DNA of 64,000 bases from Actinotalea caeni (GTDB taxonomy: Bacteria > Actinomycetota > Actinomycetes > Actinomycetales > Beutenbergiaceae). The DNA lies in assembly GCF_009733795.1 (NCBI RefSeq), contig NZ_WNXX01000004.1, positions 124,001 through 188,000 on the forward strand, read 5' to 3'. Within the stretch, counting starts at the first letter, position 1. Each line of letters starts with the position of its first letter. A model generated the notes under the pieces. It ran no database searches, was not told the origin of the DNA, and worked only from the letters and a program-made list of their open reading frames with translations. The translations under genes were made by a program, and so were the position numbers. Below are positions 24,656-60,440 of the stretch, in pieces.

Positions 24656-25383
24656 CGGGAGCGGGCGCCCGAGTCGCGTCCAGGTCGGGCTGCGCCGAGA
24701 TCGGTCGGACGGGCGAGAGGTTCGAGGTGGCCGGCACCGCCTGGCGCGGGTCATCGGGCCCGGCAACCACCAAGTCGTACGGATGTTCGAGCAGGAGTTC
24801 GTCGTCCCCGCACCCAGCCGGGTGGTCGAACCGCTGCACGGCTGCCCCCGCGCGTGCCAAGGGGGTGCGCCGTCCGGCAGGGCGACGGCGGGCGGCGACG
24901 GTCGCGCAGCAGCGACAAGGTGGCTGGACGAGGCCACGGTGTCAGGGCGTCCTGCCCTGCGGTTCCGGGCTCTGGGCGGGCACGGGTGCGCCGGTAGCCC
25001 GACGGGCGAGGGAGCGTGGAGCGTGTGTCGTGGTGACGCCGACAGTGCAGAGAGCACGAGCGCGCGGCGCGGCGCGGCGGGCACGCCCCGGTGTCGTCGG
25101 CTGGTTCTCGCGCGGCCTGCTCGCCACGTCGGCGGTCGGGCGGCGACCGGGGCTCACCGCCCGACCCCATGGAGCGATGTCCGCCCGTGTGGGATGTCAC
25201 CGCACGATCGCGCTCGGACCGCGGCACGGGTGCAGCACGGCGCGAGGCGCTCTCCGAACGCTGAGGTGGTGCCAGCTGGCTATGTCGCAGGCGTGGATCG
25301 TCCTGGAAGCGAGGGCTGGTTGCGGAGCGCCGCGCGTACGAAGGTCCGTGCTGCTCCGTTGCTCTCCACGGATGCGTGGGGGT

Positions 25384-25397
25384 GTTTCACGTGGAAC
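25384..25397. promoter_or_regulatory. parS: Degenerate parS site
   Basis: GTTTCACGTGGAAC differs from the perfect 14-bp palindrome GTTTCACGTGAAAC in one base of the right half. It is the outermost of the six sites and may bind ParB more weakly. Confidence 0.8.
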
Positions 25398-25978
25398 GGC
25401 GCTTCGCGCACGCGCTGCCCGCGCACCCGATCGGCGCGCGGTCCTCGCCCCGCCGGCGCTTCGCGTCTCCGGTGGTCTACGCCGGTGGCGGTGTGTCGGA
25501 GCGATCGGTACCCGGCAGGCGGCCGGGCGTACCTCCGTGGGCACGCGATCGTGTGCGGTGGTGGGGCGACAGCCTGGCTCGGCGAGGACCGCGCTCGGCG
25601 TTCGGTGCGAAGGCACGACGTCGTGCCGTCCGCTGTCGGCGGCCTCGTCGGGTGACGGAAGAGCCGAGCTCGGTGCGGGGTCGGATAGCCAACGGCGGGT
25701 GCCCGAAGACTGTGGCCGCCGTCCGCTCGGCGTCAGCCTGCGCGTCGCGGACGACGGTGTTGGGCATGCGGCCACGGATCGTCAGCAGGGTCGGCAGACG
25801 CACGGTGACAGCGGCATCGGCGCGGCGCGATGCCGTCCTCGCCGCGACTGCGGTGAACGGCTGCGCACCGCGACGCGGCGGGCTAGGACTCTCTCGGCCC
25901 GCGAGGCGTGTGGGGCGCCGACCTCGCATCGCTCCGCTCGGTCGGGGTAGCCGCGGTGACCTGGAGATGGCGGGTCGC

Positions 25979-25992
25979 GTTTCACGTGAAAC
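25979..25992. promoter_or_regulatory. parS: parS site
   Basis: This is the perfect palindrome GTTTCACGTGAAAC, the conserved bacterial parS core. It should nucleate ParB, encoded about 4 kb downstream. Confidence 0.95.
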
Positions 25993-26044
25993 GGCACCTC
26001 GGCATGCTCCTCTCGACAGGACAGGCGCGCGGACGGTGCCTACC

Positions 26045-26070
26045 TGCTGGTGCTGGTGCTGGTGCTGGTG
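26045..26070. repeat. Hexamer tandem repeat (TGCTGG)4
   Basis: Four perfect TGCTGG copies plus two bases stand in the gene-free region between two parS sites. It is a short simple-sequence repeat that could vary in copy number. No function is evident. Confidence 0.8.
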
Positions 26071-26429
26071 CATGCCGTGGCGGCAGCGGGGGATCGCGCC
26101 CGTCCGCGTGCTCGCGAGGGGTTCGGTCATCCGTCATGTGTTGTCCGGGGGCGGGCATGGTGGTTCACCGACATGCCGGTCTTGCAGTCCTTCGAGCCGG
26201 CTACGAGTCGTTGCGGAGGCTGTGCCCGTGGGACGCCACCACCCAAGCGGCGGACGCGGAGTCGCGCTCGCAGGTCGAGACCCCTGACGGATCGCTCCGG
26301 TCCCGTGTGCCTCGGGGGGACACGGGCGGACGGTGCCGTGGGAGCTCACGACGGTGCTGCGGCAGCTCACGGAGCGCGGCGGTGAAGGAGCCGACACCGA
26401 CCTGGCCGGGCTCGCACGCCCGTGTCTCC

Positions 26430-26443
26430 GTTTCACGTGAAAC
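26430..26443. promoter_or_regulatory. parS: parS site
   Basis: Perfect GTTTCACGTGAAAC palindrome, 437 bp from the previous site. Confidence 0.95.
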
Positions 26444-27072
26444 GCGCCGAGACGAGTGCGCCGGTCGTCGGTTCAGCCGCTGGACCTCATTCACGGTCGC
26501 GGGGGACCGCCGCGAGGTGCACGCGGGTGGATGGATGCCGGCGGTCATCAGCCTGCACGGCTGCACACGTTGTCAGCGATCGACGGATCCCAGGCTCCGC
26601 GTGGCGCCCGAGGGCTCAGGTGAGCCACCTGTGGTCACGAGTGATACGCGTCCCGGGCCGGGGGAGCGGGTGGCCGCTCCCGCGGGTGCCGCGACGCCAA
26701 GGTCGGTGGGGCCGAGGACGGACCGGGCAGCCCTTGCGATCGACGCGGTGGGCTCTGGCCAGCGCCGGGGGCTGGGGCGTGGACGCCCGGGGTACGGCGG
26801 CACGTTCCGACCCCGGGAAGGGTGCGTCCGGGTGGCGTGCTCCCGAGTGCGAGCACGTGGGCGTGCCGGGGCGCCGAGGACGCGTCGCGACGTCGACGCC
26901 GGCATGCTGGTGGCGTGGGCCCAGGCGGGTTGTCCGGGCGGCCGCGGTCGTGCTGCAGAGTCTGCGCCGCGACGTGGCAGGTACCGGTGCCTCGAGGATG
27001 CCGCTGCCTGCGGCGTGCCCTCGAGCTGCGCGGCGCAGCGTCGAGCGGGTCGCCCGCGCGCCGATGCCGGAG

Positions 27073-27310
27073 TTGTCCACAGCTCCCAGGAGTCCTGTGG
27101 ACAGCTTTCGCCCTCTAGCTAGAACCCCGCGAGAGGAGTCGAGCTCGGCGTCGCGCGCGTGGGTCGTGCCGCGGCAGCTCAGTGCTGGCGCGGGAAACTG
27201 GCACTCGGTGGGCTGCGCGGCAGGTTGGTCGAGCAGGGTAAGCCGTGGCGGACCGAGCGTCCCCGGTCCACTGGTCAGGCGAGACTGTGGACAAGACGAG
27301 GTTATGCACA
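27073..27310. other. DnaA-box cluster inside the parS region
   Basis: Four DnaA-box-like 9-mers lie within 240 bp. They are a perfect TTGTCCACA (27073-27081), the complement of CTGTCCACA (27096-27104), the complement of a second perfect TTGTCCACA (27286-27294), and TTATGCACA (27302-27310). The first two form an inverted repeat TGTCCACAG...CTGTGGACA (27074-27082 and 27095-27103). The cluster is about 14 kb from oriC and lies between parS sites. It may act as a DnaA-titrating or origin-linked site. Confidence 0.6.
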
Positions 27311-27435
27311 GGGGGTGCACAAGCCAGGATGCAGGGACCGCGGACGTGTGTCGAGCCGGGAACCGTCGACGTGAGCTCGCTGTGCCGGCGGGCTGCTCGC
27401 GGCGGACGGAGCGGGGCGGTGTGGCTGTCATGTCC

Positions 27436-27449
27436 GTTTCACGTGAAAC
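27436..27449. promoter_or_regulatory. parS: parS site
   Basis: Perfect GTTTCACGTGAAAC palindrome, 126 bp after the DnaA-box cluster. Confidence 0.95.
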
Positions 27450-27525
27450 GCCCCGCGCGCGGCTGCACTGGCCGACCCGACCGATCAGGTGAGCCCGGGG
27501 CCCGGGTGGGCGGGACCATCAACCG

Positions 27526-27636
27526 GTGCCGGGTGGTGGCTCCGGACGGGGGTGTGCCGGGTGGTGGTTCCGGACGGGGTGTGCCGGGTGGCGGGCTCCG
27601 GACGGGGTGTGCCAGGTGGCGGGTTCCGGGCGGGCC
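27526..27636. repeat. 27-28-bp tandem repeat, four copies
   Basis: Units begin at 27526, 27554, 27581 and 27609, each starting GTGCCGGGTGG or a close variant and running through TCCGGACGGGG. Copies differ at several positions, the last one most. The array lies between two parS sites. Both strands read as low-complexity peptide, so it is best viewed as a non-coding minisatellite. Confidence 0.85.
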
Positions 27637-27721
27637 GCGCCGATGGCGGCTCCGGGGGTGCCGTCTCGTGCGATCGGGGGTTCTGCTGTGACACCGCTTG
27701 CGGCGAGCCTCGCGATTCATG

Positions 27722-27735
27722 GTTTCACGTGAAAC
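27722..27735. promoter_or_regulatory. parS: parS site
   Basis: Perfect GTTTCACGTGAAAC palindrome, 286 bp from the previous site. Confidence 0.95.
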
Positions 27736-27857
27736 GCCCGCGTGTCCGGCCTGGCCATCAGACGGTGCTGACGACCTCGCGGTCGCGGAAGCCGTCGAGC
27801 GCCTTTGTCGATTGGTGGTGCGGCTGGGACGGTGACGCCGCTCGCGACAAATGCGCC

Positions 27858-27871
27858 GTTTCACGTGAAAC
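27858..27871. promoter_or_regulatory. parS: parS site closest to parA
   Basis: Perfect GTTTCACGTGAAAC palindrome. This and the two preceding sites make the densest parS cluster (three in 436 bp), 1.3 kb upstream of parA. Confidence 0.95.
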
Positions 27872-28346
27872 TCAACCACGGGGATGATGAAGACCCGTTC
27901 CCATCTGCGGGGCCATTCACGGCGACGGCCGCACACCGGCCGTCGGCGGGAGACGGCGCACTGTGCTGCGGTGCCGGTCGGCACGACACGATGCGAGACG
28001 CGGGTTCCTGTCCCCGGATCGTGCATGGCTCGACGCGAAGCTACGACGCAGGCGGTCGGCAAGACTGCTGACCGCCGGCGTGATCGCGGGCTGCTGTGGT
28101 GCCGAGATCTCGATCCAGCCCGGCAGCACGGGCATCGCACGCTGCCACCTCGGTCGGGAGCCCGCACCGGTCGACGGATTCGTGAGACCTCGTGCGCCTG
28201 GGCACCGAGCGGTCGGTGTCGGAGTGAGGCACGGACGTACGGCGGCGACGCGACGCCGCGCCAGAGCGCGATCTGTCGATCTGGGACGTGACGGCGTCGC
28301 CCTGCCTGCGGGTCGGTCGGCGACGTCGCGCGATGGGGGCTCGTAG

Positions 28347-58264: not shown

Positions 58265-58460
58265 GTCCCAGTATGACCACGGGATGACTGTTGTGTCCTG
58301 GGTATCCGGTGCGGGGGCAGCGGTCGATCCCGGTCGCCTCCGTGCGCGAGCGGCGGCAATGCGTCGGTCGGGCCGGGCGACGCGGCTGTGGATGGCGGCG
58401 TCGGCGCATTTTCGCGGGGGCATCCGGCGCCTCCTGGGCACTCCTGCACGCGCCCACCCG

Positions 58461-58530
58461 CCGAGTTCGTGCGCTCGTGCCGAGTTCGGAACGGGCACGG
58501 CACGAACTCGGGAGGGCGGCACGAACTCGG
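58461..58530. repeat. Inverted CCGAGTTCGTGC repeats upstream of kynureninase
   Basis: Two copies run forward (CCGAGTTCGTGC at 58461-58472 and a shorter CCGAGTTCG at 58480-58488). Two run reverse (GCACGAACTCGG at 58500-58511 and 58519-58530). The arms can fold into a long cruciform. It lies in the intergenic region 58265-58582, about 50 bp upstream of the kynureninase start, so it may be an operator or an intergenic repeat element. Confidence 0.75.
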
Positions 58531-58582
58531 CGTACGCGGCGGCGCGTCCGCGGGAGGGTGCCGGGCGCGGGAAGATCGGGGG

Positions 58583-59833
58583 ATGGACGACTCCCGTGAG
58601 GCCGCGCTCGCCCTCGACGCGGCGGACCCGCTCGCCGGCTGCCGCGATCTCGTCACCTACGCCGACGACGTCATCTACCTGGACGGGAACTCCCTCGGGC
58701 GGCGTCCGGTGTCGACGCCGGGTGCGCTCGAGGACCTCGTCGAGCGGCAGTGGGCGCGCGACCTGATCCGGTCCTGGCCGGCCTGGCTCGCCGACGCGAC
58801 CGCAACCGCCGACCTGCTCGGCGAGGCCGTGCTCGGCGTCGCGCCCGGCCAGGTCGCGATCAGCGACTCGACCACCGTCAACCTCTACAAGCTCGCCGTC
58901 GCGGCGGTGCGGGCACGTCAGGGGCGCAGCCGCGTCGTCATCGAGGCCGATGCGTTCCCGACCGACCTCTACGTGATCGACGGCGTCGCGCGGGACCACG
59001 GCCTGGAGGTCACCCGCGTCGAGGCGGACATCGACGACGGCGTCCGCGCGACCGACCTCGCGGCCGTGCTCGACGACGACGTCGCGCTGGTCTGCCTGTC
59101 GCACGTCGGCTACCGGTCCGGGGCGCTGCTCGACATGGTCGAGCTGACGCATCTCGCCCACGACGCCGGTGCGCTCGTGCTGTGGGACCTGTGCCACTCG
59201 GCCGGGTCGGCGCCGACGCCGCTGGCCGAGTCCGGTGCCGACCTCGCGGTGGGGTGCACGTACAAGTACCTCAACGCGGGGCCCGGTGCGCCCGCCTTCC
59301 TCTACGTGCGCGCCGACCTGCAGGCCGAGCTGCGCTCGCCGATCCAGGGCTGGTTCGGGCAGCGCGACCAGTTCGAGATGGCGCCCGAGTACGACCCGGT
59401 GCCCGGGATCGAGCGGTTCCTCGCCGGCACCCCCAACGTGCCGGGCATCGTCGCGGTGCGCGAGGGCGTGCGCACGATCGCCGCCGCCGGGCTGCCCGCG
59501 CTGCGCGACAAGGGCGTCGCGCTGACCTCCTACCTCGTCGACCTCGCCGACGTCTGGCTGCAGCCGCTCGGGTTCCGGCTGGCCAGCCCGCGCGACCCCG
59601 CCCGCCGCGGCTCCCACGTCACGCTCGAGCACCCGCAGGCGTGGCAGGCGTGCCAGGCATGGATCGCGGCCGGCGTCGTCCCGGACTTCCGCACCCCCGA
59701 CCGGCTCCGCATCGGCCCGGCCCCGCTGACCACCTCGTTCGAGGAGGTCTGGATCGCCATGGACCGGCTGCGCGACATCGTCGCCACCGGCCGCCACCTG
59801 GAGTTCCCCACCGAGCGCGCCCGCGTCACCTGA
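58583..59833 (+). CDS. kynU: Kynureninase
   Basis: This 416-residue PLP enzyme cleaves kynurenine to anthranilate and alanine. The PLP lysine is K228 in GCTYKYLNAGPG, and Asp202 in WDLCHSAGS contacts the cofactor. The N-terminal YLDGNSLG and the FGQRDQFEMAPEYDPVPGIERFLAGTP region are diagnostic. The ATG follows a GGGG-rich site with GAAGATC. No tryptophan dioxygenase or formamidase lies within the window, so the rest of the pathway must be elsewhere. Confidence 0.95.
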   Translation: MDDSREAALALDAADPLAGCRDLVTYADDVIYLDGNSLGRRPVSTPGALEDLVERQWARDLIRSWPAWLADATATADLLGEAVLGVAPGQVAISDSTTVNLYKLAVAAVRARQGRSRVVIEADAFPTDLYVIDGVARDHGLEVTRVEADIDDGVRATDLAAVLDDDVALVCLSHVGYRSGALLDMVELTHLAHDAGALVLWDLCHSAGSAPTPLAESGADLAVGCTYKYLNAGPGAPAFLYVRADLQAELRSPIQGWFGQRDQFEMAPEYDPVPGIERFLAGTPNVPGIVAVREGVRTIAAAGLPALRDKGVALTSYLVDLADVWLQPLGFRLASPRDPARRGSHVTLEHPQAWQACQAWIAAGVVPDFRTPDRLRIGPAPLTTSFEEVWIAMDRLRDIVATGRHLEFPTERARVT

Positions 59834-59837
59834 CCAC

Positions 59838-60056
59838 TTTCACCGCAGTGTGCAACACGGCCCGGTTTCACCGCAGTGTGCAACACGGCCCTGGCCTCAC
59901 AGCACGGTGAACAGGGCTGGGAGCTGCTGCGCAGAGCGGCAGGACCGCACCTGTTGCACGGCGGGGTGAAACCCGACCCATGCTCCAAAGTGCGGTGAAA
60001 ACGACGTGTGTTGCAAAGTGCGGTGAAACCAGGGCATGTTGCAAAGTGCGGTGAAA
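59838..60056. repeat. Array of six 20-nt repeats, 28-nt spaced
   Basis: The unit is TGTTGCAAAGTGCGGTGAAA. Two copies lie on the minus strand (59838-59857 and 59866-59885) and four on the plus strand (59952-59971, 59981-60000, 60009-60028, 60037-60056). Starts within each group are 28 or 29 nt apart, so spacers are 8-9 nt. The third and fourth copies are degenerate. A 66-nt unique centre separates the two opposed groups. The array occupies almost the whole space between convergent kynU and arsR-type genes. Confidence 0.9.
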
Positions 60057-60098: not shown

Positions 60099-60440
60099 CT
60101 ATCCCCCCTCGCGCTCGCGGCGCGCCCTGCGGCCGCGGGTGATCTCGGTGCCGAGGGCGTCGAGGCGCTGCGACCAGGCGGCGCGCAGGGTGTCCAGGAA
60201 CGCGTCGACCTCCGACAGCCCGGCCGGGTCGAGGCGGTAGAGGCGGCGGGTCCCGACCGGTTGCGCGACGGCGAACCCGCTCTCGCGCAGCACCTTCAGG
60301 TGCTGGCTGACCGCCGGTTGGCTGATGCCGAACTCGGCGCCGATCGTCTCGGCGACCTCGCCCGCCGACATCTCGCCCCCGGCGAGCAGCTCGAGGATGC
60401 GACGGCGGACGGGGTCGCCGAGGACGTCGAACGCGTGCAT
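60099..60440 (-). CDS. ArsR-family transcriptional regulator
   Basis: This 113-residue winged-helix regulator starts MHAFDVLGDPVRRRILELLAGGEMSAGEVAETI, with a recognition helix GISQPAVSQHLKVLRESGFAV. It has no metal-binding Cys motif, so it belongs to the non-metal ArsR group often paired with SRPBCC (AHSA1) proteins. It overlaps the upstream SRPBCC gene by one base (TGATG). In most such pairs the regulator comes first, but here it is second. It probably autoregulates the pair. Confidence 0.92.
   Translation of the reverse strand: MHAFDVLGDPVRRRILELLAGGEMSAGEVAETIGAEFGISQPAVSQHLKVLRESGFAVAQPVGTRRLYRLDPAGLSEVDAFLDTLRAAWSQRLDALGTEITRGRRARREREGG

Follow-up and report, generated by a model that had tools for sequence, protein, structure and literature searches.

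Opposed, phased arrays of a 20-bp unit next to stop codons in three actinobacterial species: candidate sites for a factor that punctuates transcription

The window analyzed here is a stretch of 64,000 nucleotides in which a kynureninase gene (58583..59833, forward strand; KYNU_C, 9e-30) and a gene for an ArsR-type HTH regulator (60099..60440, reverse strand; HTH_20, 7e-15) converge, the gap between them being mostly occupied by an array of six 20-bp units (59838-60056). The left arm begins 4 nt past the kynureninase stop codon and consists of two reverse-strand units with 2 mismatches each, the outermost one (TGTTGCACACTGCGGTGAAA; 59838..59857) and a second one (59866..59885). Beyond a centre of 66 nt (59886..59951), for which comparison between loci revealed no counterpart elsewhere, the right arm comprises four forward-strand units, namely a degenerate innermost unit (TGTTGCACGGCGGGGTGAAA; 59952..59971; 4 mismatches), a unit with 2 mismatches (TGCTCCAAAGTGCGGTGAAA; 59981..60000) and two perfect ones, at 60009..60028 and, outermost, at 60037..60056; the 3' end of the regulator gene faces this arm from a distance of 42 nt. 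The spacing of same-direction units is 28 bp, once 29, and five units are found at ≤3 mismatches compared with 0.00 expected from shuffled sequences. The original prediction described precisely this arrangement, with two units facing one way and four the other around a 66-nt centre between convergent genes, and also correctly set aside a CRISPR array, which has a single orientation and unique spacers of ~30 nt and is ruled out by the 8-nt spacers and the change of orientation.

The additional claim that nothing else in the window is organized in this way holds for the 20-mer unit but not for opposed arrays in general: just upstream of the kynureninase start, at 58459-58541, lies an unrelated, degenerate array of opposed CGAGTTCG/CGAACTCG words with a pitch of ~19 nt, which is a degenerate copy of another repeat family of this genome (F3, see below). 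Elsewhere in the window, six parS-like TTTCACGTGAAAC sites are clustered within 2.5 kb (25383-27872; 0.01 expected), and a one-direction tandem repeat of 28/29 nt (27526-27650) is located among them.

The 20-mer family, hereafter F1, has 137 copies (≤3 mismatches) in the 4.0-Mb genome to which the window belongs, that of a soil actinobacterium of the genus Pseudactinotalea, compared with none for the reversed control sequence, and these copies, the surroundings of nearly all of which were inspected, are spread over at least 31 loci, which rules out a local duplication. The clusters are opposed, with reverse-strand copies on the left and forward-strand copies on the right at a pitch of 28 bp; the arms contain one to nine units each, and the centres between them vary in length, the shortest measuring tens of bases and the longest several hundred. 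The same architecture is present in Pseudactinotalea suaedae and Pseudactinotalea terrae, with the shifted unit GGTCGAAAGTGCG[G/T]TGAAA (that is, GGTCGAAAGTGCG[G/T]TGAAATCGG), so an assembly artefact is unlikely given that three species have it in common. Among 70 arrays from the three species, the outward polarity (<>) was observed in 47 and the inward one (><) in a single case, the pitch was exactly 28 in 195 of 220 pairs of same-direction neighbours, and it remained 28 in 126 of the 145 neighbour pairs whose spacers differ.

The sister unit was matched in 3 of 396 Micrococcales genomes, all three of them Pseudactinotalea; a scan of named genomes for the tandem core pattern matched only Pseudactinotalea (P. 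suaedae and P. terrae), and 2.9 million viral contigs yielded 0 matches, results on which we reject a phage or plasmid origin. No comparable family was found in 200 kb scanned from each of three other genera (G022, G004 and G012), and our literature search found no description of these arrays for the genus Pseudactinotalea. An Rfam search with the window array and arrays at five other loci gave no match at the gathering level, the only by-products being nearby riboswitches and one chance match below gathering.

The original prediction placed the array between convergent genes, but the family is not confined to such gaps: the 68 arrays assigned to gaps occupy 39 convergent, 29 tandem and 0 divergent gaps, and the 103 divergent gaps, totalling 20.9 kb, are array-free (genes were called with a simple codon-usage caller, so errors are possible in individual starts and in a small number of gaps, as with the OtnK-like gene discussed below, which was initially missed). 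Instead, the rule is that an arm immediately follows a stop codon and points its TTTCAC end at the gene, a convergent gap holding two such arms. Accordingly oriented single arms predominate, 20 of 22 single-arm arrays running in the sense direction of the adjoining gene. A 3' end is faced by 95 of 118 arms and a 5' end by the other 23; between the stop codon and the start of the outermost unit there are typically 0-20 bp, and the distance from the outermost core to the facing stop has medians of 7 and 16 bp. The flanking genes belong to ordinary metabolism and housekeeping, and no functional theme was apparent among 40 array-neighbouring genes (PEP carboxylase, citrate synthase, DNA ligase, SOD, Ku, Lsr2 and others). 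One array (L035 4807-5302), between an Lsr2 gene and a gene for a RecD-like helicase, has arms that are perfectly inverted over 75 bp, spacers included, unlike those at other loci.

At several orthologous gaps, more than one species has an array (L034/L115, L037/L104, L052/L106 and L056/L112, and, between P. terrae and P. suaedae, L090/L123, L092/L117 and L100/L109). At these shared positions, the unit is always that of the host species, the encoded proteins are only ~70-93% identical, and visual inspection gives no alignment of spacers or centres between species, a combination that fits selection on the units better than it fits relics or gene conversion. Gain or loss also occurs: the P. suaedae kynureninase-ArsR gap is short and contains a GC-rich palindrome and no array, so the window array was either gained in the lineage of the window species or lost in that of its sister; the kynU stop codon is native and common to both species, and in the window's genome, but not in that of P. 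suaedae, an array starts 4 nt later.

Within arms of the window species, the units are layered, TGTTGCA-type units lying outside CGGCA-type units in 25 arms compared with 2 showing the reverse, and core mismatches rise inward from 0.50 to 1.89, the outer units being the cleanest and belonging to the newest type. Neighbouring spacers of one arm are often alike (24% at ≥7/8 identity), spacers of different loci are unrelated, and copying of whole arrays between loci was not found beyond the units themselves, except for a segmental duplicate, L046/L047. The two members of this pair (L046 4778 and L047 4965) share one contig and have similar flanks (TGAAGCCCTGC[AG]CTTCCCAC); they alone hint at an array having been duplicated together with its neighbourhood. 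In P. terrae (L091 5160-5240), a further repeated word, GCCGTTGC[AG]GAAGTGACAGC, recurs at a distance of ~50 nt; a tandem repeat of 31 nt sits just ahead of it, and both follow a short array arm.

In both sister species, an array lies within the coding sequence of an OtnK-like kinase gene (L116 4440-5765; L093), where the reading frame continues through the arms and adds residues to two variable loops of the protein; neither arm is present in homologues from other genera (L138-L142). The segment between the arms, RFVLGSGGLSRALGLG, is conserved, which indicates that native coding DNA forms the centre and that each arm was inserted separately. This layout is difficult to reconcile with one mobile element whose inner DNA is fixed, and a transposon or MITE with multi-site ends is rejected on these grounds and because the centres elsewhere are unrelated.

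The window's genome contains a second opposed, stop-anchored family, F2 (core AAGTGGGTTGAAA, unit GCAGAAGTGGGTTGAAA, pitch 29; for example L144 1440-1700, and L188-L207), with 122 copies at ≤2 mismatches, the first core lying 1-7 bp past the stop in 19 of 24 arms. Beutenbergia cavernae has arrays with a pitch of 22 (L160 7146-7250; L208-L227), mostly single sense arms 3-24 bp past stops, in which the unit GCGCAGARAWCCTCTCG (67-86 copies by pattern) is unrelated to that of F1 and folds into a hairpin. The family F3 (unit GTGCGAACTCGGCG) is of a different kind: it has ~60 unit matches genome-wide, mostly in rigid palindromes of ~74 bp with spacings of 19, 24 and 19 and a conserved centre, and 5 of 16 copies lie in divergent gaps, with no stop-codon anchoring. 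F3 behaves like a REPIN, and because it is unanchored, it shows that repeats in this genome do not all gather at gene 3' ends as F1 and F2 do.

To judge from their layout, the F1 arrays may be protein-binding sites at which transcription is marked or stopped where genes end. Our preferred reading, to which we assign a probability of roughly 40%, is that a putative DNA-binding factor recognizes the arrays in a sequence-specific manner and punctuates transcription at the 3' ends of genes. Under this model, each 20-bp unit would be the binding site of the putative factor and the fixed 28-bp pitch would build up the arm; given that the arm lies directly past the stop with its TTTCAC end toward the gene, transcription exiting the gene would meet the best units first and the bound arm would act as a roadblock or assist termination. 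Two opposed arms between convergent genes would hold both transcripts apart, and in tandem gaps the second arm could act on transcription arriving from the opposite side, termination or insulation being the predicted outcome. We favour a factor binding double-stranded DNA, with Rho as a rival or a helper. The original prediction had likewise proposed bound protein, which is likely for this real, regular and repeated array; the alignment of such protein on one face of the helix does not hold, since 28 bp corresponds to 2.67 turns at 10.5 bp per turn, neighbouring units being rotated by ~120 degrees, and the argument is further undercut by the pitches of 29 and 22 bp in the sister families. Among known systems, the eukaryotic TTF-I/Sal box and Reb1 are factor-bound terminators with tandem asymmetric sites just past the 3' end; the F1 arms may be analogous in that they are tandem polar sites oriented toward the arriving polymerase, but they are bacterial, are located at many unrelated genes, and their factor is putative.

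Several observations count against punctuation of 3' ends. Only ~30 loci per genome carry F1 arrays, so they are not a general terminator; a roadblock within the OtnK-like gene would be expected to do harm; of 118 arms, 23 face 5' ends; and the B. cavernae analogue has an unrelated, hairpin-forming unit.

The most serious alternative, although we consider it unlikely, is that the arrays are REP-like selfish repeats, non-autonomous elements that disperse, favour or are tolerated at gene 3' ends and grow in tandem, with any function absent or secondary. In their distribution, the F1 arrays are REP-like, and in their unit they are not. As in REP, BIME and REPIN families, there are >100 species-specific, intergenic copies, mostly in convergent or tandem gaps after genes (0 of 68 in divergent ones), in opposed pairs (47 <> compared with 1 ><), and some intragenic; spacers within arms are often identical, indicating that tandem duplication occurs, the array at kynU, missing in P. 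suaedae, lies 4 nt past a shared native stop, and the same genome harbours F3, which resembles such an element. The REP unit, however, is a hairpin palindrome of 20-40 bp, whereas the F1 unit is neither palindromic nor able to fold (MFE -1.3 kcal/mol, z -0.93, for the unit alone; the sister and F2 units likewise do not fold), and the terminal GTAG or CGTC tag is missing from the consensus sequences TGTTGCAAAGTGCGGTGAAA and GGTCGAAAGTGCGKTGAAA. F1 also differs in its arms, in which units follow one another head to tail at a strict 28 bp, every end pointing outward and the arm starting a few bp past the stop, and in the positions that species have in common with a changed unit. Searches of the three Pseudactinotalea genomes for the RAYT Y1 tyrosine transposase (PF01797) gave 0 matches with positive controls matched, so a RAYT-driven REP is rejected; there are likewise REP families for which no transposase is known (PMC3733652). 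Matches between loci comprise units alone, except at L046/L047, with neither spacers nor centres in common, and one inserted element cannot yield the two insertions around the native OtnK-like centre.

Another possibility, which appears improbable, is that the arms encode Rho utilisation sites, the first 70-90 nt of their sense transcript past the stop being C-rich, G-poor and unstructured, so that Rho would load there and terminate transcription. This RNA indeed matches the description of a rut site as at least 70-80 nt of C-rich, G-poor, unstructured, ribosome-free RNA (PMC6407284): the 84 nt past the stop at array ends have a C content of 0.44, a G content of 0.20 and a median best 36-nt MFE of -8.8 kcal/mol, compared with ~0.39, ~0.38 and about -17 to -21 at other gene ends. 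Both the composition and the weak folding are seen in 75% of the arms of the window species, 60% of those of P. suaedae and 67% of those of F2, compared with 1.4% of random 84-mers, and a translated intragenic copy would do no harm. Rho, however, needs neither a conserved 20-nt unit nor an exact pitch, and the rut-type property is found in only 6% of P. terrae arms and 0% of those of B. cavernae. A test of spacer skew was negative, the skew being equal in arms facing 5' and 3' ends, and the spacers of F2 are biased towards G, so that no selection on spacer composition at the RNA level is seen.

Still less credible are RNA hairpins formed by the pairing of both arms in the transcript, as terminators or as 3' mRNA stabilisers. 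The unit sequences of the arms are complementary, the innermost units nearly abut as palindromes in P. terrae and at L108 of P. suaedae, and the arms of L035 are perfect over 75 bp. Against this, the variable G/T position agrees between arms at chance level (0.53 compared with 0.54 in P. suaedae), that is, there is no covariation, which makes an RNA stem between the arms unlikely; single arms are common, a lone unit does not fold, and the sense RNA of most arms folds weakly. An intrinsic terminator, with its stable hairpin and U-run, is rejected given the weak folding and the lack of a U-run among the listed arrays. The arms that face 5' ends are about as well kept as the others in the two sister species, and this, together with the missing covariation, favours recognition at the DNA level over the RNA level.

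Finally, it is hardly conceivable that the units are DNA uptake sequences maintained through biased transformation: although the core AAGTGCGGT is identical to the Haemophilus uptake core, although the uptake sequences of Pasteurellaceae and Neisseriaceae are likewise short dispersed words with documented species dialects and inverted pairs at gene 3' ends, and although intragenic copies would be explained, F1 has far fewer copies (~137, nearly all within arrays), the sisters use AAGTGCGTT, neither the fixed 28-bp pitch nor the polarity of the arrays is expected, and the identity of the core is probably a coincidence.

Returning to the preferred reading of a DNA-binding factor, a broader and more doubtful extrapolation is that these arrays exemplify a bacterial class of 3'-end punctuation arrays, in which a dedicated DNA-binding factor would co-evolve with its site, pitched sites would abut stop codons and be renewed on the gene-proximal side, and separate families (with pitches of 28, 29 and perhaps 22) would exist in related actinobacteria. 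Transcript ends in high-GC actinobacteria are only partly understood, and the F1 arrays, being stop-anchored, oriented and phased, with species dialects at common positions, offer a handle on them. If the arrays are selfish instead, they would constitute a REP-like family that lacks both palindrome and RAYT and expands in phase next to stop codons.
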